A DNA stretch of 64,000 nucleotides from Dacryopinax spathularia (Eukaryota > Basidiomycota > Dacrymycetes > Dacrymycetales > Dacrymycetaceae): contig JBBPFI010000001.1 of assembly GCA_037974965.1 (NCBI GenBank), forward strand, positions 1,860,001 to 1,924,000. The letters run 5' to 3'. Within the stretch, counting starts at the first letter, position 1, and the number at the start of each line of letters is the position of its first letter. This document shows positions 612 through 57,674 of the stretch, one piece after another. Both the position numbers and the translations under genes were made by a program. A model generated the notes under the pieces. That model had not been told where the DNA came from. It saw only the letters and a program-made list of their open reading frames with translations, and did not search any database.

Positions 612-1105
612 TAGGAGAAAAGAGTAAGTGGCGGGCGTTCCTGTGTAGCAGAGAGCTTGTGGTCGCTGTGGTGAGCGGCGCGAACGCGAGGGGCCAAAGA
701 AGAAGCGCCCTCAGCGGGTTATGTTACCTAGCTCGTTAGAGGTAGGTCTTTCCCCCGTCCTGAATGCGTGCCCTGTTTTCGTGCAGGGGGTAAGGGTCCA
801 GGGAAAGGTAATGTAAATTCGTCGGAAACGTTTTGATTTTTTGTCTCCGTTTGGGATGATGATCAGTGCTTCTTCCCTGCGGTGGGGAGGTTTCCCCTCG
901 GCCGTCGATGCAGTTTCAAGGTTTTTCCGTATTTGTTTCCGTTGCGAGTTGCATTGCCTCCATGACGTGATTCGCTTCGTCGGAGTTATTGGAGTGTGCA
1001 TGTGATTCATTTGCTTCCTTCGCATGGCGATATGGTGCATCTTTCGTTAAGAGTGGTCTTCTTTCTGTCTGCAGGACGTTGATTGAACGTCCTTCTGCCC
1101 CTGCG
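612..1105. other. intergenic stretch between THOC7 and family member A
   Basis: About 490 bp separating the THOC7 start (minus strand) from the first accessory gene (plus strand), so it should hold a divergent promoter pair. I see no convincing coding exon, tRNA or repeat. It marks the left border between core genes and the accessory block. Confidence 0.4.
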
Positions 1106-3191
1106 ATGATGGAGTCTTCGTCCTCCTTTGTTAAACCTGGTGGAGATGCTCGTCTTTCGAACGATCTGTTGAAGCAGTTCAAGAATATACTTCGGGCGGC
1201 GGCGCCGGAGAGCGAGGCGTTTTGGGACTTTGTAACGTCGTTGCCTATGGAGCGGTCGACTAGGGTGGGTCTACTTCGTTAATCTCGATGATGTACTGAT
1301 GCGATCGTTGGTTTAGGTCGTGTTGACGTCTGTTTTGGAGGCGAATTGGACCTTGTTCGAGTCGGTTCCCTCTAAGGTGGTGTCGTTTTTGGGAGAAGGT
1401 TGGATTGCTGGTTTCAAGTCCTTGGTTGACGAGAGTCTTCGTGCTGCGCCTCTGTCCTGGGAGCGTCTTCCGTCGGCAGTTCTCGGGCTCTTTGACAAGG
1501 GCTGGATCGATGCGGCTAAGAGTCGTTACGAGGTGGCTCTGAAGGCTCAAAAGCTGAGGAAGTCCCTGGAGCGGGTCGGTGAGGGTGGGGTGGATTGTGA
1601 TCCAAGCTACATTGTCAGCCTCGTTTTACTCTCTCGTCCCTTCGTGTCTTCGATCTTATATGAGATCGTAGCTTTCGAATATGTTTTTGGATGAGGATGA
1701 AGTCTTGGATGTCGGTTCCGGGGGCGAGGGAAATGCTGTTGCCTTAATGGTGAATAGTTTCGTTCTATATGCGGCAGTGAGTTGATTTTGTTGTAGCCTC
1801 CAGAAGAGCCTGTGAGGAATGCGGTGCCTGTATCGTCTAACGGAGTTGGATCGGTGAGTCTTGCTCTGTTTTTCGTTCTCGGATTGTGTTTGTGTTGATG
1901 TAGGCGCGCAGGATTGGTTGGCGTCCGGTTCAAATGGTTATCCTGTTAGCTCTGGAAATGGTGTCTCGTCGGTATATGATGTTTGGATTATAGTCGGGTG
2001 GTTGTTGACGTACGCAAGACTGGTCGCGGTGGTGGAGATGCGTTGTCCTTTGTGGCTGCGTCTTTGTTGTCTACCACATCCGGTGGAGTATGCTTTGTCT
2101 TCTGTCTTTATGTCGTCGTTATTCTTGACACTCTTATCTAGTTGCGTGGAGATGATGTTTCGGGCTCGCGCTCTCCATATGTGGATGGCGCACGGATGGA
2201 GGACCCGGATTCGTCTGCTGTCTCTTCCACTGTGGTTTCGACGGACTTATCAGCCTCTTTGGATGTTGCGGATCGGTCACCGTCCGTCCATTCGGTGAGG
2301 TCCGTAATCTCTGTTAGTTGGTTAATTCGCTTTGCTGAATTATTACAGTGTCCCTGTCTAGTTCGGTTGGAAGAGTGCTCATGTATTATAGCTGGATGCC
2401 ATGGCTGCTTTGTCTCCATCTGGCACTGATGTGGTGCGCCTTTCGTGATTCAATGGGGTGTTGACTTGTCGTGTCTGATTCGATGAGTAGTCTTCCGGAG
2501 GGGCTGCGTCGGTTTTCCCGCATGGCTGGGTTTGTTGCTTGTCGGTTTGTTGTGTGAAGGTGCTTATCCCGCTATTTTTAGTGTGAAAAGTGCATCAAGA
2601 AGCACATCCGGCAGAAGCAGGATCAGGTCGTGGAAGGTGCCCGCGTTCGCTGTTCTGGTTCTCTCAAGTATAGCAAAAAAGCAGGTCATGGGTGTGACCA
2701 TTGTAGAAAGGGCAACTTGACGTGTTCATTGCAACGGGGTACGTGTCGTTGATGATGATATTGTGTTTGGTTCTTACGTCTGCGTTAGAGGCAAAGATTA
2801 ACGCCGCCGCGGCGGATTTACGCTCCCGCTCCGGTTCATCTCGCACCGCCAAACGCGTATCACAGATACGGTCTTCTACGCATGTCTCGGCGAAGAGGCG
2901 AAAGGTCGTAAATGACGACGGTCACGTCGTTGGTGTTGGCGTACCTACGTCTGATGAATCCAGTCAGTTTGATAATTGTTCTTATGGCATTCGGGCTGAT
3001 CGTGTTTGATGGCAGGCGTTTATCTGGATGTCTTGCAGGGTCGCTTGCAGTGTATAAAGCTTATTGCGCATCAGTCCGACATAGATCGTTCGCTGTTTTT
3101 GGATTATCTCGATGAAACTTTGGTTCTCGCGGGAAACATGGCCTTGCTGTTGACGGAAGCGCGCAATCATCGTAGTAACGGAGGATCTTGA
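1106..3191 (+). CDS. six-cysteine-box family member A (unknown function)
   Basis: I do not recognise a named family. Exon 1 (1106-1264, MMESSSSFVKPGG start) is followed after a phase-0 intron by an exon from 1317 containing SVLEANWTLFESVPSKVVSF and FLGEGW, the helical module shared with the four relatives in this window. The middle (about 1620-2390) is Ser/Asp-rich, and its exon limits are uncertain. Clear exons follow: 2392-2433 (LDAMAALSPSGTDV), mini-exon 2491-2529 ending in Trp (SVFPHGW) and the cysteine-box exon 2582-2738 (157 bp). The box is CEKC, 19 residues, C, 13 residues, CDHC, 6 residues, C. Exon 2789 onward has basic AKRRKVV, a possible nuclear localisation signal. The last exon, 3016-3191, is helical. 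A zinc-binding nuclear role is inference. Confidence 0.65.
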
Positions 3192-3546
3192 ATTGGTCGT
3201 GCTTGTTGTGTTTTCTATTGTATGCCGTGCTGCAATCTAGCGTGACTGTAATCGTATTCCTCTTGTATGACACTAGTTTTGATAAACGCTCGGTTGTAGT
3301 ATTGATGTTCTTGCTCTCCTCAAACAGTCTAGAGGATCAATGCTTCTTTCCGATCCTGTAAATATTCTGGCTGCTTACGTGATAAGTGATGTGTCATCGT
3401 TGTTCTTTGCTCCTGTTAGCTGACATTTTGCCCTTCGGCACGGGTTCAGATGTTTGATTCCGCTTCTCTTTCGAAAACTCGATATACCGCCTGTCTCCTG
3501 TTTCGCTTTTGTCGAACTAATACCTTTCCCCTTCGTGCTCGTCGAC
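3192..3546. other. short intergenic stretch between family members A and B
   Basis: 355 bp between two tandem plus-strand relatives. It should contain the terminator of A and the promoter of B. I see no separate gene. Open frames crossing it on the minus strand have no recognisable features. Confidence 0.35.
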
Positions 3547-5411
3547 ATGGCGCCCTCTGCTGATGATTCAAACGTGAAGATCTTTCGTTCGTTGATGGCG
3601 TCTGTCTCTGATGAGGCGAAGTGGAGGCTCTTGACGGGTACGGAGAAAGGACGGGAGCGACTACGTGTAAGCATCTTGTTGGATTCATCATCGTGGTTTG
3701 AGATGTTGATGGCTTCGCAGTCCTCGGTGAAAGCGTTGCTGGCCGAGAATATCGATCTGTGGTCTGATGTATCATCCGCGCGTCCTCTGATGCATCTCCT
3801 GGGTCGCGAGTTCAGTCTCAGGGCGCATCGACTCTATCTCTCTAGCGTGTTCGGCGATGATATGGGTGATGCTGCTGAGGAGCAGTTTAAAGAACTCTAT
3901 GATGGCGATGATACGATCGAGTCCTCAGAAACGAGCGCGGCTGTTTCTCGTAATAAGGTAGATGTACTCTATTTCGATATTGTTGTATCGCTCTTTTTGG
4001 CTGACGTCTGTTTTGCATCTAGGATCCTTCTTCGGGTAGGATGTCGAAGAAGCGTCGGTTGAATCAGGATCCTTCCGTTTCTCCGAGTGGGTCTATTTAA
4101 TATCGATATTGGAATCACTGGAATCTGACGTGTTATATAGGAATTAATGCTGAGGTCATCGAAATCTCTTCGGATGATGAAGGGCCTGTGATGAGTAATC
4201 CGAGTGGGGTCTTCCTGTAAGAGTGTATTGTTCTTGCCTCGTAAACGTCCTTCATTGCCCACAGATCCCGTGAAGAGGCTCTTGCTGTTGTGTCTAAAGC
4301 CGTTCGATCCGGTTGGGGTTGGATCGGAAGCCGTTTGAAAGACGGCAAAGGAGTACCCAAGATTCCGTCGGTTGTAGAAGATGCGGACCTCTTCGCGATG
4401 CGGGTGGATGGTGAAGTTGAGGCGAAATTCCACTACCGTATGACCCGCAACGCTTTGGTATCAGCTGTTGAAGAGGTCGCGGCTTATAATTCGTTGCCGT
4501 CCGCCCTGGAGGTGGAAGACATCGCAGAGGTTATCGTCTTTCTTTTCTTTCCTTCTGGGTGATCTTATTCGTCTTGCAGACTGCCGATGATGTGTCGGAA
4601 GTAGGTGATATGCACCGCGGCTGGGTATGCTTTATCCAGTGGCGTGGTTGCGTGCCGAACTGATGCCGTTTCGAAGTGTTCCGAGTGCGATGATCAGTAT
4701 GCTGCGGAGAAGAAGCGCGGGGTATTCAGGGAGCTGCGCACGGTCTGTGGGGGACCGATCAAGATGGTGGAGGGTGAGGCTGCGTGGTCTTGCTACAATT
4801 GCCTTGAGCGCGGTATACGATGCGAATTTGCCAGAGGTATGCTGCTTGTGTTTCTTCTTCCCTGCGATTCTGTGAAGCTTACGTTTGGTCATGTATCGTA
4901 TAGATGTTCAACATGAAATGGGTGCTTTGCGTGCGCTTAACGTAACCGAAGAAAACGCTCCTCTCCATCACAATCGTCATTATGATCGTCCGGTGTGGTA
5001 TACATCCAAGGAGGGGACGATGAAAAAGCGTTCCTTGTTATCAATTTCCGGGATCAATGAACTTGCAACCGGCGGCGGTGGTTTACCCGTTAATGCGACG
5101 TCTGGCCCTTCGACCGGTCGGAGGGAGAAGCCCGTGTCCACGTCCTCCTCTGTCAATGCTGCGAAAATGTTGGATGTGAAGCGGGAGTCGGGAAAAGGTA
5201 TGTGTCTTCATCTTCGTTTGTCTATCCTCCGCTCATGCCCTCTATAGTTCATTATATGCTGGATGTGCAAGAGTATATCGGGTCGTTGAAAACGGAAGTG
5301 TTGGCTAAGATGGATGAGTATCCTAGCGTGGTCCCCGGTGCTATTCTCGACCAGGTCTTACGTGCGGAGATTGCGTTGTTGGACGAGCTGAAGGTGTATG
5401 TCAAAGTGTAA
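3547..5411 (+). CDS. six-cysteine-box family member B (unknown function)
   Basis: Tandem relative of member A. Exon 1 is 3547-3666 (MAPSADDSNVKIF start). The intron 3667-3720 is 54 bp and happens to stay in frame, but its position matches the other members. Exon 2 carries SSVKALLAENIDLWSDV and PLMHLLGREF. Then come basic SKKRRLNQ and VIEISSDDEGP, a long exon ending LPSALEVEDIAE, mini-exon 4580-4624 ending HRGW, and the cysteine-box exon 4677-4836 (160 bp: CSEC, 19 residues, CGGPI, CYNC, 6 residues, C). Exon 4904-5197 is Ser/Gly-rich. The final helical exon is 5248-5411 (YMLDVQEYIGSL to KVYVKV, stop). The junction near 4088-4141 does not splice in frame with canonical sites, so there is either an error or a lesion. 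Function unknown. Confidence 0.62.
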
Positions 5412-5708
5412 CGCGTGATCCTTCTAAGTGTTGTTTTCTCCATATAACCGTCATGCCCGATCAGAAAGAGCTCTATAATCCATAGGCAGTAATGCAAATA
5501 TATTCGGTGCATTTCATTCGTAAAGAGATTGGATGTCGTGGACCATCTATGTCTGACATGCCGTGTTTATCTAATAAGTGACCTTTCATTTTTCGCAGTT
5601 TCAATGGTTGCACTCAGCTGAACGCGTCGTGTGCTGTAGTTTCCGTCATCGTGATGTGTTCCGGGACGATGGCAACAGCGATGCGTCAATATTTAAATCG
5701 GAAATTCG
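5412..5708. other. intergenic stretch at the 3' side of the Helitron gene
   Basis: 297 bp between the stop of member B and the stop of the Helitron protein (convergent genes). The 3' Helitron end, expected to be a short hairpin followed by CTRR, should lie here or inside the neighbouring gene. I could not identify it with confidence. The inverted pair ATCGT...ACGAT around 5650-5675 is not followed by CTRR in the right place. Confidence 0.3.
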
Positions 5709-8700
5709 TTAGTATATATTATGTTCATATGCCTTTCGCGTTTCTTCGTCTAACTCGTTAATACGCTCATCCTCTAAACGAAGGAATTCGCTTGCGTGCG
5801 TGGTAAATAGCGTTGTGTCAAAATCTCGTAATAGACGGATACTGTCTCGTCCTCGACTTCTTGAAAGTGCAACGTACGCGTTGAATGGCGTAATGCCTCC
5901 AGAGGGGGGGTTAGCAATGTCGACTATTACGAAGGGCAGCGTTTGTCCTTGAGCGCGATAGTCCGTAAAGGCATAGGCCGGCGTCATGGGAAGTTGCTGT
6001 CGTACTACGGTTTTTTCTTCTCCATTTCTGAGGCGTACTTTGAATCTCTTTTCAAGCGGCGTAACAGGAACAACGTCAGCTGGCAGCCCGGGTAGTGGGT
6101 TCGCTTTTGTTCTTTGCAGTTTCACCAGCACGTATCGTGGTGGTCTGTGGAGGTATTGTCGGTGCGTAGTTCCCAACGAAGGAAAATCATCGTCATGCAA
6201 TCCAATGCCCACTATTTCGCCTCTCGCGCCGTTGGCGATATCAAGCTCGGTTTGGACATTCAATGTCACCATTACATTCATGCCGATTGCTAGCGGAACT
6301 TCATTCGGAAGTCCTCCTTGTTGACGTCCGACACGTGTCTTCTTTCTTCGTTCTGTTAGCATTCGATATCGTAGTTGTGCAGATATTTCTTTTCCATCCA
6401 CCGTGTCATATGCTTTCGATATGAGTAGTATTTGGCCGCTTTGCTGACAATGCTTGGCAACCGCGGCATCGTTCCATTTCGCTCGTACAGTGTGCCTTGA
6501 AGTAATTAGAACGGCGTTGTTCCAGGGTACATTATCAAAGTCGGTATGAGGACAGTCTTCGTTCCCAAGAACCAGACCTCTCAGCATTTGAATGTCGTCC
6601 TGAGTGCATAGTCCATTTCGTGATCGATGAAGAAACGCTAACCAGGTAGGATCTTGAACACGGCATTGTTCTTTTAGGACTACCACGGTCCTGAACTGAA
6701 GATAGATGTGTCGTCCTAGACGTTCGTCCTCGTTGTCTTTTGTCGGGTGTGCCGGTGTGTACAAAGCCGCATTTCTCTTGTTTGCAACCGGTGGGAATTG
6801 ATGAAAGTCTCCAGCGATTATAACGTTAACTCCGCCGAACGGTAGATCCGGATTTGTGTTTGGGTCGGCGGCAAGCTTAGCAATCGAAATATGGCGCGAG
6901 ACTTTCGCCAAAAAGTCCTTGGAACACATTGATATCTCGTCAATTATGAGATATACGGGATGTCGCCAAAGTGACGCCATTTTCGCTAGTGTTCGTGGCC
7001 CCACTTCTGCATTGGTGCGTTGTTTCCGTTTAACGGGTATCATGGTGATATGGTGAAGCGTGAGTCCATCGATTAAGGAGGCTGCAATTCCCGTGTATGC
7101 TGCTTTCAAGAGCAAATGCCGTTTACCTGGCATGTTGAATAGTTGTGTGATGCTTTGAATCACCCTTGATTTTCCCGTTCCTCCCTCTCCATAAAGCAGC
7201 ATGAGTAGTTGTGGGGGTTGTTGACCGTGAAACGTTCTTTTGGTATGTCGTCTAACAATGTCGAAAGCTCTTCTCTGTTCTGGCTTCAGGCCTTCCATGT
7301 CGACGGCGTCCATTGGCGCGCTAAGACCGATGTCTTGTGGAAGCAGACCTTGAATCTGCTGGTCTAAGATTTCGACCAAGGGTTGTATTAGGGTGCTGCT
7401 TTCTTCATCCGAGGTGTGACTGATGTTCAGTCTGTCGCTAAGCGCTTGCTGTACATTGAGCGCAAGTGTCTGCTGCCAAATAGACAAGTATTCTTCATTT
7501 CCGAGATGCAGTTCCGTTTCATCTGTTTCTTTGAGAGACCATGTTTCGTTTATCTCCTTGAAGATTCCTAGCCCAAGCGCCTTTGCCACCGCCTCTATTC
7601 CAAAGCTTAGCTCTCTTACTGGTTGGGTGGCGTCTTCGAGTATTCTCCAGTCCAGCTCGGTCAGGGCTTCAAAGTTTGTGACTCTTCCTTCGGGTAATTC
7701 TTCTTCATTGTATTCATCATCGCTCGACGGTTCGTCTCTGATGTCTGTGCGGTTGATGATGGTCTCCTCTGTCTCGCCAGGTGCCCGTCCTACGTCCACA
7801 TGTTCCTCCGCCCGAGTTCGACATTCATAGAAGTACTGGATATTACTGATGATATCGTGAACTCGCTTCGGTGCGTCGAGCAAAAATTCCTCATACGCTT
7901 CGTCCCATGATGACGCGTCGCCTTTGAGCTCCGTGAGGGCTCGCCATGGTTTTAAAAGGCACATCATGGCTGCTTTATGTGCTGTTGTAGTGCGAAGATT
8001 GTCGGCACGCGGAGGCCATCGCCCGGAAAAACTTGGCAGGGTGTTATGATGTATTGAACGATGAATCCGAGTCCTCGTTTCCGCGTGTTCGTAAGTTGAT
8101 CGGTAACGACTACGCCGGTTTCTTCTTCTTCCTAGCTGCTTCTCTTCAGATTCGACTTCTTTCTCTTCGTAGGTGTCGAGAAGGAAGCTGAGAAGGCACC
8201 AGCCTTCTAGATCATCTCCTCGGTGAATGTATTGGAGGAGCTGGTTTGCTTGCGGTACTATGTGACCTTCATCATTTGTTTCCATGATGATATCATCCTG
8301 TTAATAATGAACGAACACATGTCATGATCAGCGTTTGAGTATGGTCCCGTCACAGGGTGTCTTCTCACATCGTTGGACTCCATCTCTGCATATGCTTCTT
8401 CTACCCGTCTTTCTTCTTGCACAGCAACAGTTGAATCGTTCCTCCTATAATGTCTGTTCTCCGCGGTCAGTCTTGATCGTTGTCTATTATGGTTGCGTTG
8501 TCTTACCTTTGACGCTCGTCGATCTCGGGATACGCCCGATATAGCTCCGCCATAATCGTTGTCCAATATACGGTGATGTAAGCGTGCGATTGCCATACAT
8601 CTCCCCATCCCATAATATACATAACACATTGTGACGCAGATTTTTCTTGTTCTCTGTTAAGGATGTTGAAACATCGATAGATAAGTAATCGATTCCTTTC

Positions 8701-11608
8701 TCTGGCCGCGTGGATGTTGTCGTTTTCCTCAAAGTGGTATAGCAATTTGTCGGGTAGCAGTGCCATCATATTGTAACTGCGTCCTTGCTTCTTCGCCGCA
8801 TAGTTCGCGATGTAGAAAGCGACGTCTTTGGTATCCTCTCCATTGGTGAGGAGTTTGATATCATGATTGCAACGCATCGAAATGGCTGTTGCCGTGTTCC
8901 ACCCGTTCATGTATGGGTGTAATCGCCGGGTTCCCCATTGTCCGTTCGGGTGAACATAGGACTCGTCGCTCAAGGGGAACGGTGCATGTCGTTTGCACAC
9001 CATCTTCCCGTTTCGGTCTGACCGTAAACATGTATCCGTAGAGCACGTATGAAGCTGTAAGGTCCTCACGATTTCCCTCTCCATCTCCTTGCAAAGCACG
9101 GAATAGTTGGGATCGAGTGGGTTCGGCGGTCGAGAATATGAACATTCCGAGTTTTTCTGAACTGTGGATATATTTTCAGGTCGAAGTTCCGGAATGTCGG
9201 CCTTGATCACTTGGGAAATGTATTCCGCCATCCGGTCTCGAAACGCCGCGTCTTTTAGCCGTTCCTTCGTTTCGTAGGCGGACGGAGAGTTTTTTAGCCA
9301 GATGATGAAATGGCTATGTAAGGTTGATTTGCCTTGGATCTCAATCGGTCCGAAATAGGCCTTGATTTCGCCTAATATACCCATCTCCGATTCAAACCGG
9401 TTGCCGGTAGACCTCGCAAGTCGTCTACCTCCTTGACTGAATACGTTTCCCCGCATACCATCCTTGTGATCAACCCACATCATGTGCTTCAGGAATGCGT
9501 TCATGGTATACTGAAAAAATTTGGCAGCCGCATATGGATCATTCGCAACATTCTTGGCTCTCTTCTGACGGTTCGGACCTGCTGTGGACAGAAAACGATC
9601 CATGTCGATGTCTTCTCCGGCGAAGATTTGTAAGACGGGATCGTGAAGATCGTTCGGCGATATAGTGAACCATATGTTAGGAGGCCCGAAATAAAATGTG
9701 GTTCCCCATATATGATTGCACAAAGCTACTCTCGCCGCATCAGAACCCATGACGCGCGCGCCTACGGCCTGAAGTTGCTTCCGTAATTTCGCGACAGCGG
9801 GATTCGAGAAGGGAATATTTCGCTGCTCTTCATCGGCTGCTTGTCGCAGATCCTCTATGGTTATACTGGCAAGTTCGGCTGTGGCTCTCTGAAAATCTGT
9901 CTTGCGCATCTGTAGTCTTGCTGATCGTAATGCTTCTCTCTTCTGAATTATGCTGAACGCAACGAAAATCCAGGAACCATGCCGACGGAATCTTCGGTCA
10001 TGATACCGTAGCGTCCATCGCATGTGCTCTTTGAAAGAAACCTCCACACTTCTCGAATCCTCCGGACCCCCTTCTCCGTACGGAAATAATGCGATAAACG
10101 CTGCTGCTAAAGGATTATGACCGTCTTTTGTCGTACCATCTGGATTTTTGCCGAAGTCGTTTAAAGGTTTCCTTGCATGGCGAACGGCGTAACCTCCCTC
10201 GGAGGTGGACTCGTCCATCCGTGCAAGCGCGTTCATCATGAGCTCATGCTGACTAGCTCGAGTAAGATCCGTATCTTCCACCCCGAGTGTCTGCAATGGA
10301 ACAACGTAATCGGTTTCGAGATCTACGACATGGCGCGTGAGCAGATTCATCTGGAATTCGGTATGTTTTTGGCTCACTTCCTTGAAGAATGTCGTCATCC
10401 CTCTCGGGTTGATACGGATCATCTTCCATATCCACCCCGATTGTTCGATCTTCGTACCGAATAATGGCTAATATTTCTGTTGGGATCTCATCCTTGGGGA
10501 GCGATGATATGCGTTCATAGAACCTCCGATCATCCAGCTCCAGTTCATGATAAAACCGATTGTTCTTCTTTAACCACCGTAGCGCGTTCCATACTACCGA
10601 GCGTCGTACGCTGAATGTCTTCTTCAGCCAATGCTTACGAACGTCCTCCAGTTTCATCAATCCAATGAACGATATCGCGATCACGGAGGACAACACCTCC
10701 AGCGGCCTTGGGAATATACGTCCATCAAGCATTTTGACGATCTCCGACTGCTCAAGCCGAAATAGGACCACATTGCCTCGCATGCCATTCGGTACGCTAT
10801 CGAAGTTGAGATATTTATTGCTTCTTTTCGTCTTCGGATACATTTTGAATTGGAAAACTCGTGGATAATGATGAGCGACGAGCAGTTGCTCGGAAAGCGT
10901 CATTTGGGAGATCTCGATCGGTGTTTCGCCGATCCACATCGAGTTCGCCAATGACCAAGCCGGTAATCGTGCTGCTTGAAGATCTTTCAGACATTCTGGA
11001 CACATCCAGATCACATCCTTGTCCAATGCTGGTATTGCTATGAGCTTGCCGTCTCTCAGATTTGTCCGATGCCCCTCGATACTTTTCTCCGGGATAAGCA
11101 GTTGAGAGTTGGGTATATCTTCAAATCGCATCGACTGCATTTCTTGGGCGAAAAATTCGCCGGCACAACAACAGCATGTTTGCGACATTAATGCATCGTT
11201 CCCGGTCGCCATAAGAAAATCCAGATGGCACTGTCGCAATGTTTCATCATCGGGCGGGCGCATAAATTCACGTGGATCTTCCTCCGTCTCAGAGTACCAT
11301 GCCGTTTCGGTTCCGCGTTGATCCACCACTCGTCTTCTCTTCCGGGCAAACTCTGCGTCGTTCTCTTCTCTCTTCCGTCGCCTTCTTTCTCGCTGTCGCA
11401 AAGCTCGATTGTTCTTTTGCTCTTCTCGTCTTTTGCTCTTTCGTAGTTCTTTCTCCGCTGCAAATCTTTCCAGCGCCTCCAGTTCGCTTGCATCGACGCT
11501 AGATAATGCGTCGAGCAGTCGTTGCTTACTTCGCCTTGCTGATGCGGTGAAAGGTATATGAGGGAGCGCGTGAATGATTTCCGTCTTAGTTAAGCTCGAA
11601 AGCGGCAT
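5709..11608 (-). CDS. Helitron transposase (Rep/helicase), intact, four exons
   Basis: Rolling-circle transposase of an autonomous Helitron. Exons 11608-10378, 10322-8507, 8444-8369 and 8297-5709 join in frame to 1903 residues. The N-terminal part has a likely zinc knuckle (CCCC near residue 150, CPEC about 60 residues later) and a region resembling the DUF6570 domain of fungal Helitrons (PRVFQFKMYP to RPLEVLSSV). The Rep nuclease follows, with the two-histidine motif STLHSHFIIWLK and the paired-tyrosine motif FYIANYAAKK (Y-x3-Y-x2-K). The C-terminal half is a Pif1-type SF1 helicase: Walker A GEGGTGKS, Walker B LIIDEIS, GDFHQFPPV, DYRAQGQTL and YVALSRSRGRD. No internal stop or frameshift remains after removing three introns (10323-10377, 8445-8506, 8298-8368). 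I chose the start MPLSSLTKTEII at 11608 because it heads the first long exon. Confidence 0.92.
5709..11608 (-). mobile_element. Helitron (minimum extent = transposase gene; ends not located)
   Basis: The element must be larger than its coding region. Helitrons have no inverted repeats. They begin with TC, end with a hairpin plus CTRR and insert between A and T. I could not place either end. The largest space available without breaking neighbours is about 5412-12224. Because the single protein is intact, the element was probably active recently, but only a comparison with an empty site or with other copies would give the true ends and age. Confidence 0.8.
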
Positions 11609-12224
11609 GGTCAGAGACGTGCTGATTTACATGCTTCCATGGCTAGCGTACTTGTAGCTATATAGCACTATTAGACTGTCACATATCATCGTGATTGGAC
11701 GAGAAGGCGAAGACTAGCTGATGTGATACCAGTGGACTTCCGATTCTTTCGTATACAAATCGCCATGACTGCCATCATTCGGTGATGCGATGGATTGCCT
11801 ATGAAGGTGTCCGTGATTTTTTCCGGCTAATACGTCTTTCGTGTCATCTCCGAGTTAACCGAAACTCAAATTCGTCTTATTCGAAAGGATGGAAGCTGAT
11901 AAGAATGTGTAGCCCGCTTTCGTATTCGCTTCCGCATCATTATATTCACTCGGCAGTTTCGCAGGGCGCGTTGCCGAGCCTATCAGCACATTCGGCTGTC
12001 ACGAAGATGTTAGCTAGATAGAAAACCGGTCTTCTATTTTTTGGGCTCAGCAACGTGCGCTCCGTGCGTCGTTATGGAATTTTCCAGTGCGGTGTACTGC
12101 TTGCCCTATAACTAACTCACCATCTTGATCGTCGTGGATTTACCCCCTGTCTTCACCTTCCCCCTACCTTGAATATCCCGTTACCCTTCTCAGACGCCTT
12201 TCCCTCGGCTTCTGTCGCATAATC
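11609..12224. other. upstream region shared by the Helitron gene and an unknown gene
   Basis: 616 bp between two divergent starts (11608 minus strand, 12225 plus strand). It should contain the Helitron 5' end and both promoters. A TATA-like stretch, agctatatagc, lies near 11660 on the Helitron side. I see no coding exon. Confidence 0.35.
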
Positions 12225-13600
12225 ATGACTCGAACACAACCTCGTCGTAATCCGCGTAATAGGTCGGCTGACACCGTTACATCCGACAGTCCAAGTGCTT
12301 CGGATTCAGCTACACCCTCCAACTCCGGGGACGTGATTGAAGCTGATGCACCTTCGGGCGAGCAAATTTCTTCTTTGCCAAACTCTGTCGATTGGTGCGC
12401 TGTGTTTCCACTGTTCTTTCTGTTCCGTATTCGTTGATCATCCATCCCGACCGATAGCGGGAATCATGCTGTCCTCTCGTGTAAGCATCTCTTCTTTTTA
12501 CGAAAGACTTGCTGATTCAATTTTGTAGCCAAGTCTGATGACGACGCACCATTGAGCGAAACCGGTTCCCTCGTCACGTCGACAGTGTCAGGTTCCGCAG
12601 TCACGCCTACTGCGTCGCCTAATCAACGTTCGGCCACGCCCGACAGATCGGTGTCTTATCGTGAACAAGCGCTTCTTACTTGGATCAAGGAGTCGGGTTA
12701 CAATCTTTCTGATCCGCAGGACATGTCGTTACTCACCTGGGGCGTGCTCAATCAGGCCGACGGCGTCATTCTGCATGATGGTGAAGCGGCAGCGCATCTA
12801 ACCCTCATCGCTCGCATTTCCGAAGAGAACTTCAATCTTACGCCCCATGGTGGATGGCGCCGGGATGGTACCTTCTCACGGGATTTCAGCAAACAGAAGG
12901 CGAGTGCACTTTTAACGAACCCGGATCGTGCCCCTTTCGATGTGCTCTACGAATCCGCCCTTCGGAATATCGAGCAACTCCAAGAACGGGTTGCATACCC
13001 TGGCACGGAAATATTGTCCGTCGTAAAGGAAGGATGCATCAGGATCAGCTGGCCTTTGTTCGAGGTGGGTCTCGCTTCAGGCTTTTTTGATGATATATGC
13101 TGATGCGCACTTCGCCTAGCGTCGACCCACTGCTCAAACAAAGGATGATTGGTTGAGCGGAGGAGATGATGGTGGTCAGGCAGGTGCGTACGTTATTGTT
13201 CATTCCGTTCACATCAGCTTATCATGTATCATCTGTAGACAATGTAGACTACCACGTCTGGGACGATTGGACCGTTCCTGCGGCAATCGAACATGAGCTA
13301 GCTCGCTTGAAAGCCACGCATGTGCCGTTGCCGCTTCCGGCTTACGCATCGAACGGTCGTCTTATCAGTCCTTCGCTGTGGAAGGACGAGCTACAAGGCG
13401 CTGTAGTCAAAATCAAGTTAACGTTCAAGTATTACCATATCGCAAAGGAGAACAAGAGTACCTTCGTCCTAACACCTTACGACATTATCGTCGTCTCCCC
13501 TCCCGCGGTAATCAGTACGTCCCCACTAAAGAAGCGACGCCTCGTAGATGGACCTTCTGGTAGCTCCAGAAGACGGGGGGCGGTTTCGCAGACTCAGTAG
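12225..13600 (+). CDS. conserved-looking five-exon gene of unknown function
   Basis: Five exons (12225-12394, 12458-12480, 12529-13064, 13120-13183, 13239-13600) join in frame to 384 residues. All introns are 48-63 bp GT-AG. The second exon is only 23 bp. The N-terminus is Arg/Ser/Thr-rich (MTRTQPRRNPRNRSAD). A compact domain follows (SVSYREQALLTWIKESGY to VKEGCIRISWPLFE), and a second half has DNVDYHVWDDWTVP and VVKIKLTFKYYHIAKENK. The tail SPLKKRRLVDG is a likely nuclear localisation signal. I recognise no family. It starts 616 bp upstream of the Helitron gene on the opposite strand, so it could be cargo, but nothing proves that. It may also be a relative of genes common in fungal accessory regions. 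Confidence 0.6.
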
Positions 13601-13969
13601 CGATCTATGCATTTTCTTCTTATGTTACTGGAGGAGCCGCTACGTATCATTCCCTCCGCTACAGCAAGCTGAATAACGATTTCGTCTAAATTACTTTCAA
13701 TCTTGGCATTTATGTTCTGTTCGACGGCCGCCTCTGTGCTTCGCCTTGCACTCAATTTCGTTCTCGACCTTGATTAACGTTGACACAGCTATCCTTCCAT
13801 CTACTTTCGTCGACCTGATAGATCACACTATGTCGTGTTCCGAGTGGTTCACTTTGGTCAGACAACGCATTCCACCTCTTATCGTTCTTCGTCCATATTT
13901 GAAAAACATTCATCGGTCATTCATTTACGGACGAAATAACCTAATTCGTGATCACCGGAAAAAACCTAT
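13601..13969. other. intergenic stretch between convergent genes
   Basis: About 370 bp between the stop of the unknown plus-strand gene and the stop of family member C. Open frames here are not supported by splice logic or motifs. I see nothing beyond likely 3' untranslated sequence. Confidence 0.35.
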
Positions 13970-15537
13970 CTACATTGCTCCTAACGCTACGAGGGACTCG
14001 TTGGTGCGATCTTTGATCAGAGTGAACAGATCAGCAGCAACCTTCCAGTTAATTCCGTTATTCTCTTGAATCGTTTTCTCCAAACGACGGTCTGCATGAT
14101 CGATATACCTCTTGATCGCGATGAGCGTTCCTCCTAGAAGATACTATTACTTCCGGATACAGAATAGCGTCCTTCTAAGAACTTACCAAATTCACGTTTT
14201 CCTCCTTCGGCTTCGATGGTATTTTCGCCTATCTCGGCCTTCTTAGGCTCTTTCGGCAAAGTAGGCTCGCCTTTGATGGGACTTCCTCCGGAGCTCGCGG
14301 GGAAGGAATATCGACGCTTCAGTACCGCGGTCTTCTGCTGCATGTGCTTCAGTAGCTCGTTCGCAAGACTTTTATCTGCTGCGTTGAAGTCATAAGTTGC
14401 TCGCTTAATCTCGAATTTATAAACTACCATAAATGTTAGTTCTTTCCGCTTACGCACACGCAGAATAGATCACTTACGCGATGTGAATTCGCAAATGAGT
14501 CCACTGTCCCAGCACATGTGACACGCGAATGTATCCATTTCCTTGATAAAGATCGGTCCACCACACTGAGTACGTCTATCACGACGAACACCGGCCTTGC
14601 GATCTTGCCAGTAATAGAAGATGCAGGTTGAGCACTGCAAATATTATCATCAACCAAGTCCCTCCACGTGTATACACGCCATTACCCATCCTTCGAATTG
14701 ACGCACGTCGTCCTTTAATCTTTCATTCTACACACGGGCGAATCAACCAACCATCCCATCAATCAACTTGAATACACACCGTGTAAATCGACGTGACTTT
14801 ATCCGCGGAAGGAAGAGCGATCAAAGCGGCTTGCGCTTGCAACGGTGATAGCTGAAGACCTGGTGGGATTCGAACCATGTGAACAGGTCCTGCAGACGGA
14901 TTATTTGTCGTCGGAACAACGACGGACTTCACGATTTCCTCGGGTATGGCTTTCAGAAGGTAGCCGCGTTGCCCTCTGAATGCCGAAGGAATGCTTTCCG
15001 TCGTGTACGACGTACGAGTAATAGAACTTTCTTTCCTCGTAGCTTGCACAATCTGCATCCTCAGTGTCAGCAGTTCGTTTCTAAAGACATCAAATAACTT
15101 CACCTCGGTGACAGGAGCGTCCTTCTTCTCTCCGAACAGTACCGCCATAGCTTCCACCGTCCCCTTCCATATCGTAATCAGTAACAAAGACGCTGCATTG
15201 CCAGATGGACAAACTCACATAGTACTTCATCGAGGACAGACGAGGATCTAACTCTCGATACTCATCCCTTTTCTCCTTGAGCCATTGCTCATCCACCGCA
15301 GCGACCATTCCAGGCGTAAGACGGCTGAATGCGTGGAGATTAGCGTCAACATATCCTTGAATCTTCGACTAGCACGAAGCTGTCAGCAACAGCCTCCGCT
15401 TCAAAGTATAAACGCACGCTGATATAACTCTTGTTGGCTCGCACATAGCTCGGCCACGTTGACTGCCATGAAGCAGCGCAGAATGAGCGAAAAGCATTCT
15501 CTAGCTCAAATCTCTCTCTGGTCGAAAGCACTGACAT
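13970..15537 (-). CDS. six-cysteine-box family member C (unknown function)
   Basis: Seven exons join in frame to 417 residues: 15537-15418, 15368-15219, 15163-14780, 14727-14686, 14634-14478, 14423-14187 and 14133-13970. Exon 1 (MSVLSTRERFELENAF) is 120 bp, as in member B. Exon 2 has YVDANLHAFSRLTPG and DEQW, aligning with the shared helical module. Exon 3 ends QAQAALIALPSADKVTSIYT. The 42-bp mini-exon ends FEGW. The cysteine-box exon (157 bp) encodes CSTC, 18 residues, CGGPI, CHMC, 6 residues, C, then EF. Exon 6 is Lys/Glu-rich (KRRYSFPASSGG). The 164-bp final exon is helical (IDHADRRLEKTIQENN). No named domain is recognised. It appears intact. Confidence 0.68.
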
Positions 15538-15685
15538 GATGGTTGCAGGGAAGGATTTGATGGTTCGTCTCCATCGGCGCCCCTCAGTGATACCTCCGTC
15601 TGTTTGCCTCCGTCTGCGTACCGCGTGCTTCATCGGCGCGTCCGGAGGACTTTACATACATCTCCGAGCTCGCATATGTACCCTA

Positions 15686-16571
15686 CTAATCATCATTGTC
15701 TTCCCACATCGACAATGATGGATGCGAGGGAGTCCCCGCTCTACATTCCTCCTTCATGCCGAGTACTTCCTCTTGCACCGACTTAATCCTGCTATGTACC
15801 CTTTCCCACTCCTCTTCCGTCAAAACGGCTTTGAACGTTCTCCATTCGTCATTCAGCCGAAGGACTTGATCTTCAATCTTCATCATAACCGATCCTACAA
15901 ATATTACAACGCAATTCGTCCTTTCAAATTAGTACTCACTCAATGCTCTGTTCGCCGCTGTAATAAGGAGTACTTAATAACGACTACTTAAACGATTTTG
16001 ACAACGCACATATGATCATGTCGCCTGATGTTTGGACTGATTTCTCCTCTTTCTCCCTTCTCTCCCCGCCAGATCGTTCGCGATGTCTTCCAACGAAGTC
16101 TGGTCGTTCATCTGCCAAGATGAATCATCGAATACTGTACTTCCTTTAGAAAGACGCTTGGCTCCACTAACCCCAATCGAGCGGATACCATGACGGTACT
16201 TCGGTGTTCTTTCTTGACGAAAAGGTTCGTCCTCGGCCTTTCTCCAGTAGCCTGTCCACGTAGTCCTCCCCGAGGAACCTCCTTACTTCAGGAAACAATA
16301 GACGTACTTCATCCGGATTCTTCTCAAGATAAGGAACAATCATGGTCTATAGAGCATCAGAATGCGAAACACTCAGAATTACATTCAAACCCACCCTAAT
16401 CAAACCCGGTTCATTTGTTGTCATCTCCTCCCAGGTGCTTTCCATGCTCGCAAGGATGTTCATGTGTCTTAATGGATGGTCTCCCGCTTGTCGATACATC
16501 TCATCCAACACCCATGCAGGTATGACCACTTTCGCATTTGACGAAGAAGCATTTCCTTCCTCCGGGGCCAT
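15686..16571 (-). CDS. six-cysteine-box family member E, lacking the cysteine box
   Basis: Fifth relative, apparently truncated. Exon 1 (16571-16395, MAPEEGNASSSNAKVV) resembles the MAPSADDSNVK start of member B. After a phase-0 intron (16347-16394 approx.) comes the shared module IVPYLEKNPDEVRLLFPEV plus RRFLGEDY. A basic stretch (SGAKRLSKGS) and an acidic stretch (NDQTSLEDIANDLAGREG) follow near 16050-16190. The final exon, 15894-15686, is helical (IEDQVLRLNDEWRTFKAV) and enters in phase 1 like the other members. I could not find the Trp mini-exon or the six-cysteine exon anywhere between. Internal exon limits around 15900-16190 are uncertain. It may be a pseudogene or a short isoform-like paralogue. 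Confidence 0.45.
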
Positions 16572-16870
16572 TGACGACACAGTGTGGAAAGACAACATCT
16601 CTAGCTGCCGCGACGAGGCATCTGACCATTGATGACGCACGAGATGCTGTCACGTGTTCAAACGTACTATATTACTGTTCCTACGGAAGTCAACGGGTAA
16701 CTGGAAAAGAAAGACCGCCTGTAACTGCATGATTCCTCCTCCTGTCACCATAACAACACGAACACGAACACGTCTCTTTTGCATAAGCCCTCGAGGAACA
16801 GATGAATGATGAGAAATAAACGATGAAGAAAATACTTTTGGCGCAAAGCGCAATTGAAGTCCTTTTTTAT

Positions 16871-18645
16871 CTACAGACCCGACGCCAGCTTTGCTAAGTT
16901 GGCCTTCCCGTCCTTCAACGTTTGTTCGAGCATCGACATGCGCATAGGAACTTGCTCAAAATTCACGTGTCCGTTAGACCTACGGACATGATCGAAATCC
17001 GCCGAGAGACGCTTGACCTGGTCGTCGAGACGTTCGATGAAGCCACCTGATATCCCTGTCAAACACGTCGTTGCAATAAGTAACCATGGAACTTACGATA
17101 CCAATCTAAAGACCTCTCCCCTTCCGGCTTCGTACTCTTCTTTTTCCCCGTAACCGTCGCCGAAGGTATAAACGCGATCCCGTCCTTCTCCAAGTCCGCA
17201 GCGAATGCATTAGCTTCCTTCCTCGCCGACGAAGAAGATGCCCCAGCGTTGTTAACAGTCCTGGAAGAAGAAGGCACCATAGTGGAAGGACGGGATACCG
17301 TATCGTTGATAACCTGAGGAACGTTGTCTTCCTCATCGTCGTCCGACGAGACGATAGCGTCGAGCTTGCGCTTCTTCTCTCCCTCCAGCATAGCACGCTT
17401 CAACTTCTGCGAACGCGCAAACCAGGCTACAGGTTATTCAGTACGCGATAGACAAATGAAAGCTTGAATCTATGCTTACCAACTTGAAAGCTACACTTTC
17501 TCCCCACGTCCCTACAGTTATGACAGCTGAATCCCATCTTCGACGTGCCCATAATAGGACCAGGGCAGGACGTGCGTTGGTCGGGAACAACGCCGGCGAG
17601 AACGTCTGCCCAATAATCGTCCTCGCACATGTTACACTAAATCAACTTCAATACCTTCTTATCGCACTAAGGACAGAACAGCTTACCCAGCCGCGATGTT
17701 TCACTTTTCCTTTGGTAACCTCGGAATGATCATACGTCATCTGCAACAAAGAATCAGAATATCTCCATGTTAGAAAAAGATAAACGCACCCAATCCAGAA
17801 CCTCTATCTTGTTCGCCGTAGGCAAGACTTCCCTCGCCGCCTGCGACTTGTACGCAGGAAACTTCACGTCCGGACCGAGACGAACGTAATGCCACGTGCC
17901 ATCCGTCAACCTACCGTTACGATGCAACTCGGAAAGCTCGATCTGCGGTGGAACAGGATTATGCCAAGGTCGTCCTCCGCCACGACCTTCCCTCATAGGC
18001 AACGCGACACGACTATACGCATATATGATCGTTCCTTGCCACTCTTCGTTGACGACGAAGATACGGGCAAGAAACTGTTCCCTCTTCTCCTGCGTACGCG
18101 TCCGAACACCAACAGGAAAAGGCACAACGTTCGTCGTCGAAGCTGCCGAAGAAGCATTACCGCGAGGCTAACATACAAACAGCGCGTAAGCCATCAAGTC
18201 CGTCTTCGCTTAGAGAACTCACTACTCTCACAGTAACCAAAGGTCGATTCGCAACCTGAGCAGATGATGTCATGTTCTGCGCGGTCTACAACAAAGTTAG
18301 TACTGCTTCATCGTGAACGGAAAAACAAAAGCGTACCCTTGTAACCGTACCAGTCGAAGCCAGCGACTCGTCCGCCATCCTTCCTCTCATACGCATAACC
18401 CACTCCGACCCCATTAAGTCCTTCATCGGCTGAGTCAGAGAACGGAACATCGTGATGTCTCTATCCACTACGCGATTGATCACATCCTATAGATAAGATC
18501 AATCATAGAACGACGAGGCGGTCGAAGATGCACATACCTTAGCGACATCACCGAATTCCTGCACATGAGAACGCCACGCAACAGCATCCTTTGACTTCAG
18601 GAGCAACGCTTGAAAGCGTTCGGTATCACTAAGAGCGATCGCCAT
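16871..18645 (-). CDS. six-cysteine-box family member D (unknown function)
   Basis: Eight exons join in frame to 471 residues: 18645-18538, 18486-18337, 18285-18232, 18167-17790, 17740-17687, 17636-17480, 17426-17097 and 17055-16871. Exon 1 starts MAIALSDTERF, like member C, so I preferred it to an upstream Met at 18792. Exon 2 holds VVDRDITMFRSLTQPMKDLM plus GSEW. Exon 4 ends LPTANKIEVLDW. Mini-exon 17740-17687 ends VKHRGW. The cysteine-box exon (157 bp) gives CNMC, 19 residues, CPGPI, CHNC, 6 residues, C, then SF. Exon 7 has KKRKLDAIVSSDDDEEDN, a basic-acidic nuclear-type stretch. The last exon is a coiled-coil-like helix (GGFIERLDDQVKRLSADF). Function unknown; nuclear localisation is inferred. 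Confidence 0.7.
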
Positions 18646-20051
18646 AGATGGATTTAAGTCGAGGTCGATGAAGAAGGATGATCGTCGTTGTCGAAGTTGA
18701 AGAAACCCCTGTTCCGCGTCTAACGAAAAGTACATCCAAACAAATGCCTCCGCTTTTGCGGAGGCAAACGCGCTATTGTCTCCTCTAACCACGTGACGTT
18801 AGCACCTGACTTCAGGGCTCGTCATCGATATTAACCTTCTACTTACATCTTAGCGACAACGACTTCATATAACTTTCTTAAAAACTGCAAAGTTATGTCC
18901 TTGGTGTGTACGGTTAACTATGGTACACTTATATAAGAACTTCTCTATGGTGCGTGATGTCACTTAACTATATCCTTAGCCACATCGACGAGGCGTCATC
19001 ATCCTCCCGTATGATGAGGTTCGCCATTTCAGCAACCACCACGAAACCGTCCCACCAACTCCTCTTTCCTCTCCTTCTACATTTGACAATACTTCATTCG
19101 TCGCAGAAGCTAGATGTTCTTACATTCGACAGGCCTCAAAACAAAGCGATCAACGGCAACGCTTCAATCCGCCGTATCCCACACTCCTTCACCGCGTTGC
19201 CCAACGAAACAGTCCATGAAACGTCACCACAGCACTCGTACTTCAATCGTTATTCAAGCGCCATGCACGCCTTTGTCGATATTCGCTACATTATCGCGTT
19301 CGTTGCTAGCAGCGACATCATCGTTTCCGCCGAATTCGAAAACGTTTCGCCTTGGGTCGAAGTCGATCGCATCCACATACTCCTCGACTTCGACGACGAC
19401 GCCATCAGTGTCATGATCATCGCCAACACTGTCTTCTTCAGCACTGACGATGACGGTGACTTCGTCGATCTCCACGATCCCGCCGTTTTTCGTCGAATCC
19501 GACGTCAACGGTCCCTTCGTCGAGCTTGACGACGACGTTCGACTCATCGTAACCGACGATGAACAAACAGCATCCTCAACTTTGACGACGAACCTCCAAT
19601 TATCGCATCTAACTACAGCGACGCATTCATCGACATCAGGGACGACGATGCCTTTATCGACGTCGGCAGATCATACGCTGTTGTCGGTACGCGCCCACTC
19701 ATCGTAATCTCCGGCGATCGGCATTTACATTGGCACAGATAACGCGTACACGAATCGCCTCACGATGAAACGAACGGTGCGCCCGCAGCGCTCAACTCAT
19801 TCCATGGATTCGCTAACGTTATCCTTTCGCAGCCCTTGCCATAACGCTCGTCGTCTCGCCCATCGACGATGATCTTACGCCCCGCCACGCAACGATCCTT
19901 GTGCTGTCATCTCGTCCCGACAACATCACCACGTCGTTGCGGATTATAAGGAAACGGAATCAGCGCGTGGGCTCCACCTTCGCACCGTCCTTTCTCTTTT
20001 CCAGCGTCATATCCATCCCGTCTCATCACTCACTGAACTTGCCAGTCCAAC
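18646..20051. other. gene-poor stretch with GAC/CGA-rich low-complexity DNA
   Basis: 1.4 kb between member D and actin. From about 19,250 to 19,720 the DNA is full of cgacgacg-type runs, which create open frames on both strands with Asp-rich (plus) or Val/Asp-rich (minus) translations. I see no motif, splice pattern or start context that makes any of them a gene. A TATA-like sequence (tatataagaac) lies at about 18,930. The stretch probably marks the right border of the accessory block. Confidence 0.3.
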
Positions 20052-21664
<1,613 letters not shown>

Positions 21665-22102
21665 GCAATCCGGCGGATGTCAAGCTGGACGCAGAGCCGA
21701 AACGAGCCGGATTGAGATGTTTGTGTTATGATCACCTTTGTCCTCGATAGAGCAATGTCAATAGAGTTGCCATTACATATTGTATACGCGACATTCCAAC
21801 ATCCGGTCTAGCAATGAAATTCTTTCTTTCTTTCTTCTTCACAATCGAAGAAAAAATCTGCTTCTTCCCTTTCCCAACAAATCAATACCTTCTTTCCAGC
21901 AATGGATAGTATCAATTCATATCCGGTACGCTCATCGGTGATGCCTCCGACACACCAATCAGCTCCACTATCGGCGAACACGGACGAGCTAGGTCCCTGC
22001 CGGCGGAGCCCGGCCCCTTCCAAGTAAGCTGCTTAGTCAGGAGTTTATTGTCCCTTTCGCGCGCTGCAATGCAGCTGCCTCCCGGCCTGCTTCCCAACCG
22101 CC
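21665..22102. other. intergenic region upstream of SWC4
   Basis: Between the actin stop and the SWC4 start. It contains a pyrimidine-rich stretch (ttctttctttctttcttctt around 21,820) and otherwise nothing that I can name. It probably holds the actin 3' end and the SWC4 promoter. Confidence 0.35.
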
Positions 22103-57316: not shown

Positions 57317-57592
57317 ATCGTTTGGTGGGCTATCTATTGTCACGATCCCTTAATGCATTGATGGGCACTCTACCGCTGCTCTATGCCGTACGATTCCTTG
57401 TGTGCGAGCACGATTATGGATCGTTACTGGCCCACATTGCGCCTGCATATACGAAAATGAATTATCGAAAAGATGAGCGAGGGATGATCGGCTTCACGAG
57501 AAGACCGCAGGCAACAAGGCGGTAACAGACACTTCGGCGTTTACAGGCGCATGTGTCGGGTCTAAGCAAAAGGCATAAGGATGAAAAGGTTT

Positions 57593-57674
57593 GATCGACG
57601 CAGGAGTCGAACCTGCAATCTCTTGATTGCGCACAAGTCGTAGTCAAGCGCCTTGACCATTGGGCCAGTCGACC
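57593..57674 (-). tRNA. tRNA-Arg(ACG) with a 10-base intron
   Basis: The cloverleaf can be drawn on the minus strand. The acceptor GGTCGAC pairs with GTCGATC (one G-T). The D arm contains GCCCAATGGTCAAGGC. The anticodon stem CTTGA/TCAAG encloses a 17-base loop that contains ACG (57639-57641). The T arm is GCAGGTTCGACTCCTGC. Removing 57628-57637, just 3' of the base after the anticodon, leaves the standard seven-base loop. The D-arm and loop resemble yeast tRNA-Arg(ACG). CCA is not encoded. It lies between RRP7 and the RTP1-like gene. Confidence 0.92.

Follow-up and report, generated by a model that had tools for sequence, protein, structure and literature searches.

A giant multi-gene Helitron of Dacryopinax spathularia and its probable resident family of Cys-box genes

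Introduction

The window considered here, a stretch of 64,000 nucleotides of the dacrymycete Dacryopinax spathularia (contig JBBPFI010000001.1, positions 1,860,001 to 1,924,000), contains five diverged genes, g1 to g5, which follow a common plan and lie inside one bounded mobile unit, around a Helitron gene (RepHel) with DUF6570, Rep and PIF1 domains (table 1). Copies of the unit and its ends are found elsewhere in the genome, and the six-cysteine (Cys) box carried by four of the genes clusters around a single Helitron subtype. A sequence-only reading had taken the five genes for a local family, missing both the Helitron gene between g2 and g3 (11626-5709) and the mobile unit; a placement among local host genes is to be abandoned, as the genes sit in Helitrons and all the Cys-box matches found cluster around seven RepHel loci. 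That g1-g5 are resident genes of the Helitron element can be stated with high confidence; that they are maintained for the element's benefit is probable, as is the joint claim of residence and maintenance. In the following, C1, C2, C3 etc. are contigs of the genome, the unit of the window being the locus C1:1870k.

Genes of the unit and their common plan

The gene models use the start and end coordinates of the sequence-only reading, and the five members proposed there hold, all models being stop-free with GT donors throughout. An automatic splice model supplied those of g4 and g5; hand placement, with the common plan in view, accounts for most of g1 and g2 and for the micro-exon of g3, which makes the agreement of these models less independent. 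In g1, g2, g3 and g5 the order is N-terminal exon, second-exon module, variable middle, LPSA-type motif, micro-exon, box and a helical last exon. The first intron, expected from the earlier reading to be of phase 0 after the N-terminal exon, is so in all five models, and the second exon bears the signature [FLM]-x-G/D-x-x-[WFY] in five of five genes, as read by eye. The LPSA-type motif ahead of the box (LSPSGTDV in g1, LPSALEV in g2, LPSADKV in g3 and LPTANKI in g5) belongs to an exon that ends in phase 0 and is followed by a micro-exon of 13-18 codons with GW as final residues, and then by a box exon of 157-160 nucleotides, which has the first cysteine at its start, in phase 0, and ends in phase 1. 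The introns flanking the box are of phase 0 and phase 1 in four of four genes, and the last intron is of phase 1 in five of five. The full family plan (N-module, LPSA, GW micro-exon, six-Cys box, phases 0/1/1) is found in g1, g2, g3 and g5, while g4, with neither LPSA-type motif nor box, fits it by the N-module and by first and last intron phase only.

The N-modules were compared as profiles, after being cut and joined from exons by the analyst, a procedure that may flatter the scores. None of 200 column shuffles was as good as the match between the g1 type and the g3/g5 type, and the same result was obtained for g4 against each of these two profiles; g2 is the weakest, with 0/200 shuffles as good against one profile and 10/200 against the other. 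The layout assigned by the sequence-only reading to all five genes is retained in part: the second-exon module is backed by the signature throughout and by profile homology in g1, g3, g4 and g5, but weakly in g2; the A-x(n)-LPSA-x-x-V motif is found before the box in four genes and not in g4, an N-terminal LPSAVL of g1 not being in the homologous place; the six-cysteine box is likewise lacking in g4; and homology of the final exons rests on place and intron phase, because they align poorly. A real, diverged, unnamed family with this domain order is nevertheless supported, given that none of g1-g5 matches Pfam above cut-off and that 14 box lineages exist in the genome. Searches of a protein database with g1 (E 1) and g5 (E 0.001), about 8,000 candidates being scored for each, gave no match, a result compatible with rapid evolution or with gene models that are missing.

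RepHel sits between g2 and g3 as three open frames (11626-10253, 10467-8503 and 8300-5709), the introns joining them being assumed. The neighbouring gX, which is divergent from RepHel in all seven elements described below, belongs to no known family; it has invariant stretches, such as LHDG and HGGW, and four relatives at 40-52% identity in a protein database search, three from Calocera cornea and one from Dacryopinax primogenitus, both Dacrymycetes. These relatives point to a dacrymycete host and make the agaricomycete setting presumed by the sequence-only reading doubtful, though a mobile gene says little about kinship. The gene gX is a better marker of the giant Helitron subtype than the Cys-box genes. 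A gX profile found no match in the PDB, nor did two gX relatives in PHROGs, and a structure prediction of one gX exon without alignment was too weak to use (predicted local distance difference test, pLDDT, 44).

Table 1. Features of the mobile unit (window positions unless a contig is given).
Feature	Position	Strand	Size or model	Remarks
Whole mobile unit	724..22025		21,302 bp	Ends accurate to 1-2 bases, from copy comparison
Left terminal sequence, TTACCTAGCTCGTTAGAGGTAGGT...	724..788	+		Inverted repeat and hairpin; in 7 copies
g1	1106..3191	+	12-exon model, 486 aa	Cys box from 2582
g2	3547..5411	+	9-exon model, 474 aa	Cys box from 4677
RepHel	5709..11626	-		DUF6570, Helitron_like_N, PIF1 (Pfam E 1.5e-34, 5.1e-32, 5.4e-24)
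gX	12225..13601	+	384 aa	Element gene divergent from RepHel
g3	13970..15537	-	7-exon model, 417 aa	Cys box 14482-14634, micro-exon 14686-14727
g4	15686..16571	-	5-exon model, 226 aa	Limited to N-module and last exon; no box
g5	16871..18645	-	8-exon model, 471 aa	Cys box 17484-17636
Captured host actin gene copy, with introns	19933..21774	+		PF00022, E 5.1e-77
Right terminal sequence, ACGAGCTAGGTCCCTGCCGGCGGAGCCCGGCCCCTTCCAAGT	21984..22025	+		Inverted repeat and GCCGG/CCGGC stem; in 7 copies
Short non-autonomous copies with both unit ends	C4:2092367, C6:1584845, C10:169663, C14:134923		321-366 bp	

A bounded mobile unit of Helitron type

The limits of the unit are given by its copies. A 99% identical copy lies in inverted orientation at C2:2752623-2773923 (locus C2:2764k); similarity begins at 724 and stops at 22025, with unrelated sequence in the flanks compared, and the 18,109 comparable positions of 21,302 contain 155 differences and one gap. 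Both ends recur together at five further places, namely in four elements of 321-366 bp, which are 82-97% identical, over aligned parts, to the first of these four, and in one of 2,986 bp, where 67 bp remain of the left end, 233 bp (90% identical) of the right end and 282 bp (72%) of the region in which g1 starts. The two ends share an asymmetric inverted repeat, ACCTAGCTCGT being found two bases inside the left end and its complement 31 bases inside the right end. The left 67-nucleotide end folds better than shuffles (z -3.1), and the right-end fold, formed by the tabulated stem, does not (z 0.76).

A second family, with two copies on C11 and C14 (about 97.6-98.6% identical in the pieces compared), has similar ends about 18.5 kb apart and the same asymmetric inverted-repeat plan; the element sizes of about 18.5 and 21.3 kb refer to these two families, in which the ends were located. 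The right-end pattern occurs at 11 places genome-wide, and at none when reversed. Nine of these are copies already identified, and no match to the pattern was found near the C3:1584k, C10:489k and C1:1816k elements. The two new places (C3:2065662 and C5:764558) are right ends of the C11/C14 type and possible further copies. As for the gene content of the copies, g4 was seen only in the window unit and its C2 copy, in a search that was insensitive and generally missed diverged N-modules; the N-module search reached only two near-identical copies and the 2,986-bp copy. In a different search, the g5 N-module gave a weak match at C6:828289 (E 0.395).

Of the Helitron hallmarks, Rep (Helitron_like_N) and PIF1 are present on the same strand in neighbouring open frames, and neither a target-site duplication nor a common flanking base was seen by eye in the flanks of the seven copies. 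Assignment to canonical Helitron1 elements (5' TC, 3' CTRR, A/T insertion) was rejected, the ends being TTACC... and ...CAAGT, or their complements, and the flanking bases variable. The asymmetric terminal inverted repeats of Helitron2/Helentron-like elements are found in both the window family and the C11/C14 family; their target (TT, or TTTT then T or C) was not seen, by eye, at the seven copies. The unit is a giant multi-gene Helitron in the Helitron2 style, with asymmetric inverted repeats and RepHel antisense to the polarity suggested by the ends: by comparison with Fusarium Helitron2-type elements, the left end would be the 5' end, RepHel being then antisense.

The Cys box in the genome

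The box reads C-x2-C-x19-C-x13/14-C-x2-C-x6-C in g1, g2, g3 and g5. A slightly relaxed form of this pattern finds four matches in the window, all in these genes, and none in 100 first-order Markov windows. A search of the organism's own genome with the four boxes gave at least 20 Cys-box matches, on which all box counts given here are based. Each of the 20 matches found is no more than about 22 kb from one of seven RepHel loci, all of a single subtype, with two boxes at C1:1816k, four each at C1:1870k (the window), C2:2764k and C3:1584k, and two each at C10:489k, C11:502k and C14:848k. DUF6570 and Helitron_like_N, the latter over 723-726 bp, are matched at every one of these loci, which together account for 7/45 Helitron_like_N matches in the genome; of the remaining 38, none comes closer to a box than C14:821k, which lies about 21 kb off and is not part of the element at that place.

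At all seven loci a g1-like box lies on the strand opposite to RepHel. Other elements, as judged by eye, likewise have the LPSA motif, the GW micro-exon and the box, and a counterpart of g2 at C3:1579022 combines box, micro-exon and LPSA motif. The boxes of g1 types are 53-80% identical to one another. Thirteen of the 14 lineages, in which two one-residue variants are not counted, have all six cysteines, and one C11/C14 lineage has 7 residues in the last gap.

A further Helitron subtype is represented by about 30 other DUF6570 matches in the genome. In most cases it has a single open frame of around 2,000 aa, and no Cys-box match adjoins it; some of the DUF6570 matches have identical scores, which suggests recent copies.

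Possible function of the box proteins

A profile of 13 boxes, made without the C3:1595348 lineage and the two one-residue variants of the C2 copy, gave eight PDB matches at E up to 10, none of them significant (best E 0.089). Five of the eight are to fungal Zn2Cys6 DNA-binding domains, those of the ethanol regulon factor, LEU3, LAC9 and, twice, PUT3. Basic stretches follow the box in the g1 types, and these, along with the weak zinc-cluster matches, favour nuclear DNA-binding proteins. The Zn2Cys6 (Gal4-type, PF00172) cluster has the spacing C-x2-C-x6-C-x5-12-C-x2-C-x6-8-C; the second half of the box, C-x2-C-x6-C, resembles it, but the first half differs, with 19 residues instead of 6. Membership of that family was therefore rejected by spacing in g1, g2, g3 and g5, and also by profile, PF00172 scoring below cut-off (E 8.3 for g1 and 1.9 for one box). 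Another below-cut-off match, of g2, is to DUF3716 (PF12511; E 0.89); an own-genome search for DUF3716 gave no match, but neither did its controls. Structure prediction of the box from four sequences was discarded as too weak to use (pLDDT 61).

The box proteins are most likely nuclear accessory proteins encoded by the element, and might be DNA-binding regulators of it, reminiscent of fungal zinc clusters, a suggestion that we make tentatively and at somewhat less than even odds. It is rather unlikely that they are, instead, accessories of single-stranded DNA or replication, with no transcriptional or anti-silencing role. In plant Helitrons such a job may be done by RPA. Rolling-circle transposition does expose single strands, and a fixed box and micro-exon beside a variable middle would suit this role; Pfam, however, gave no oligonucleotide/oligosaccharide-binding fold or RPA match, and several diverged paralogs per element suit sequence-specific regulation at least equally.

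Resident genes or passengers

Between the window unit and its C2 copy, g1-g5 show 30 nonsynonymous and 22 synonymous differences (pN/pS, the per-site ratio, 0.41), to be compared with a neutral expectation of 77% nonsynonymous (p 0.002 in a simple binomial test). The ratio is close to that of RepHel (0.44, from 12 nonsynonymous and 8 synonymous differences in the parts compared), and gX, partly covered, has 0 nonsynonymous and 2 synonymous differences. Between elements, eight of ten pairs of g1 boxes are saturated at synonymous sites, so that dN/dS, the corresponding ratio of rates, is given by the other two only (0.20 and 0.30).

The same unit carries a host gene that has been captured. The actin copy is 96.5% identical, over 1,843 bp with introns included, to C1:233729-235571, the likely donor, whose neighbours, read by eye, are RPN10 and SDA1. 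Its last exon is out of frame (by eye), the actin of the C2 copy has a one-base gap too, and no element outside the window family was found to carry the gene. This decaying copy is an example of a passenger, and g1-g5 look different from it.

Could g1-g5 be passengers as well, i.e. genes that the Helitron took from the host and now carries without using them? The presence of the actin gene is in keeping with the idea, as is the interpretation of the extra genes of fungal Helitrons as captured in the parts of the literature drawn upon here (PMC4289320; PMC6431247). It is, however, improbable: none of the 20 Cys-box matches found lies away from the elements, g1-like genes and gX accompany all seven in fixed order, coding differences in g1-g5 are depleted in amino-acid changes and, unlike the box genes, actin has a likely donor locus and a broken frame. 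A host accessory cluster (e.g. for recognition or defence) hit by a Helitron insertion and later segmentally duplicated, as the sequence-only reading would have it and as genes on both sides of RepHel might suggest, is most improbable, since the ends of the copied block also bound five shorter copies and, in similar form, the C11/C14 family, and the gene order repeats around seven RepHel loci; a host gene cluster with plain segmental duplication was rejected because the copied block stops at these common termini.

Residence in the element, and maintenance for its benefit, are, on the other hand, not favoured by every observation: the C2 copy has one stop in g3 and another in RepHel, and the box lineage at C3:1595348 (one of the 14) has lost the last cysteine.

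If g1-g5 are resident genes, they would have arisen by duplication within the element lineage and been kept for helping the element, through proteins that would act in the nucleus. The Cys box would form a zinc-binding, DNA-contacting fold, by which the proteins might bind element DNA, either at the ends or at the divergent promoter of RepHel and gX; binding, in turn, might regulate or assist rolling-circle transposition, or oppose silencing. Precedents for element-encoded regulators are VANC of Arabidopsis VANDAL elements and the TET/JBP genes of fungal DNA transposons, which reportedly act on the silencing of their own element; no sequence relation of these to g1-g5 is claimed.

Relation to known Helitrons

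The closest known case is that of capA and capB in the HELPO1 Helitrons of Pleurotus ostreatus (Castanera et al. 2014; PMC4289320), which may include relatives of the box genes, the two sets being compared by description only. According to the part of that report used here, HELPO1 elements carry one to four extra genes downstream of RepHel, several of them of unknown function, and these genes are reported to lack copies beyond the Helitron boundaries; capA, capA2 and capB are about 45% similar, and capB is found in five other basidiomycetes, RepHel having the same orientation in four of these (PMC4289320). The likeness is, therefore, that of basidiomycete Helitrons with extra genes confined to Helitrons. 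The differences are in size and ends: HELPO1 elements, as described in that part, reach 13.7 kb and have T[C/G] and CTRR ends and an A/T target (PMC4289320), whereas the window and C11/C14 families measure about 21.3 and 18.5 kb, respectively, and have asymmetric inverted repeats.

In structural terms, the Helitron2-type FoHeli elements of Fusarium oxysporum offer another comparison (Chellapan et al. 2016; PMC5148889). In the sections of that article consulted, their terminal inverted repeats are described as asymmetric, with the 3' repeat set about 20-40 bp in from the end; hairpins are reported as well and, in some subgroups, an inverted transposase gene; FoHeli3 has, like the present elements with gX, an extra upstream, oppositely oriented open reading frame without known domains (PMC5148889). 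FoHeli elements differ in being of about 5-11 kb, with few genes, other terminal sequences and another target preference (PMC5148889). For fungal Helitrons in general, a review, also used in part, gives 6-7 up to 14 kb, and up to 39 kb for those of maize, and describes full-length capture of host genes by Helitrons as exceptionally rare (PMC6431247). In the portions available of the open-licence literature on fungal Helitrons and Helentrons, gene capture and Dacrymycetes, no description of genes of the g1-g5 type was found.

An N-module at an SPT16 locus, and the flanking host genes

A g5-like N-module (47% identity, E 3.9e-6) is found at C18:193814-194035, where it shares one open frame, by eye, with an apparent SPT16 linker and immediately precedes a match to PF08644, for which no second one was found in the genome. 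The 4.8 kb upstream of the module show, by eye, no SPT16 N-terminal domain and a transporter-like gene instead. In this arrangement a module from a Helitron gene may have become fused to a chromatin gene of the host; if so, part of an element regulator would have been put to use in host chromatin machinery. The wider proposition, that giant Helitrons encode an expanding family of modified zinc-cluster DNA-binding proteins controlling the element (its transposition or anti-silencing) and that, in addition, their N-module was fused in frame to the host's only detected SPT16, is unlikely when taken as a whole.

Outside the unit, the window contains ordinary host genes between 46151 and 61823, for an M24 peptidase, an F-box/LRR protein, RRP7 and an RTP1-type protein, and a tRNA at 57592-57674.

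Implications

Extra genes of Helitrons are usually interpreted as captured passengers. In the present case a single Helitron subtype has, at every one of the seven copies detected, members of a conserved paralogous family together with a further conserved gene, and a near full-length capture of actin next to these genes serves as control. The case also calls for caution, in that families borne by elements can be mistaken for fast-evolving host genes. Whether Helitrons encode regulators of their own becomes, in this way, testable.

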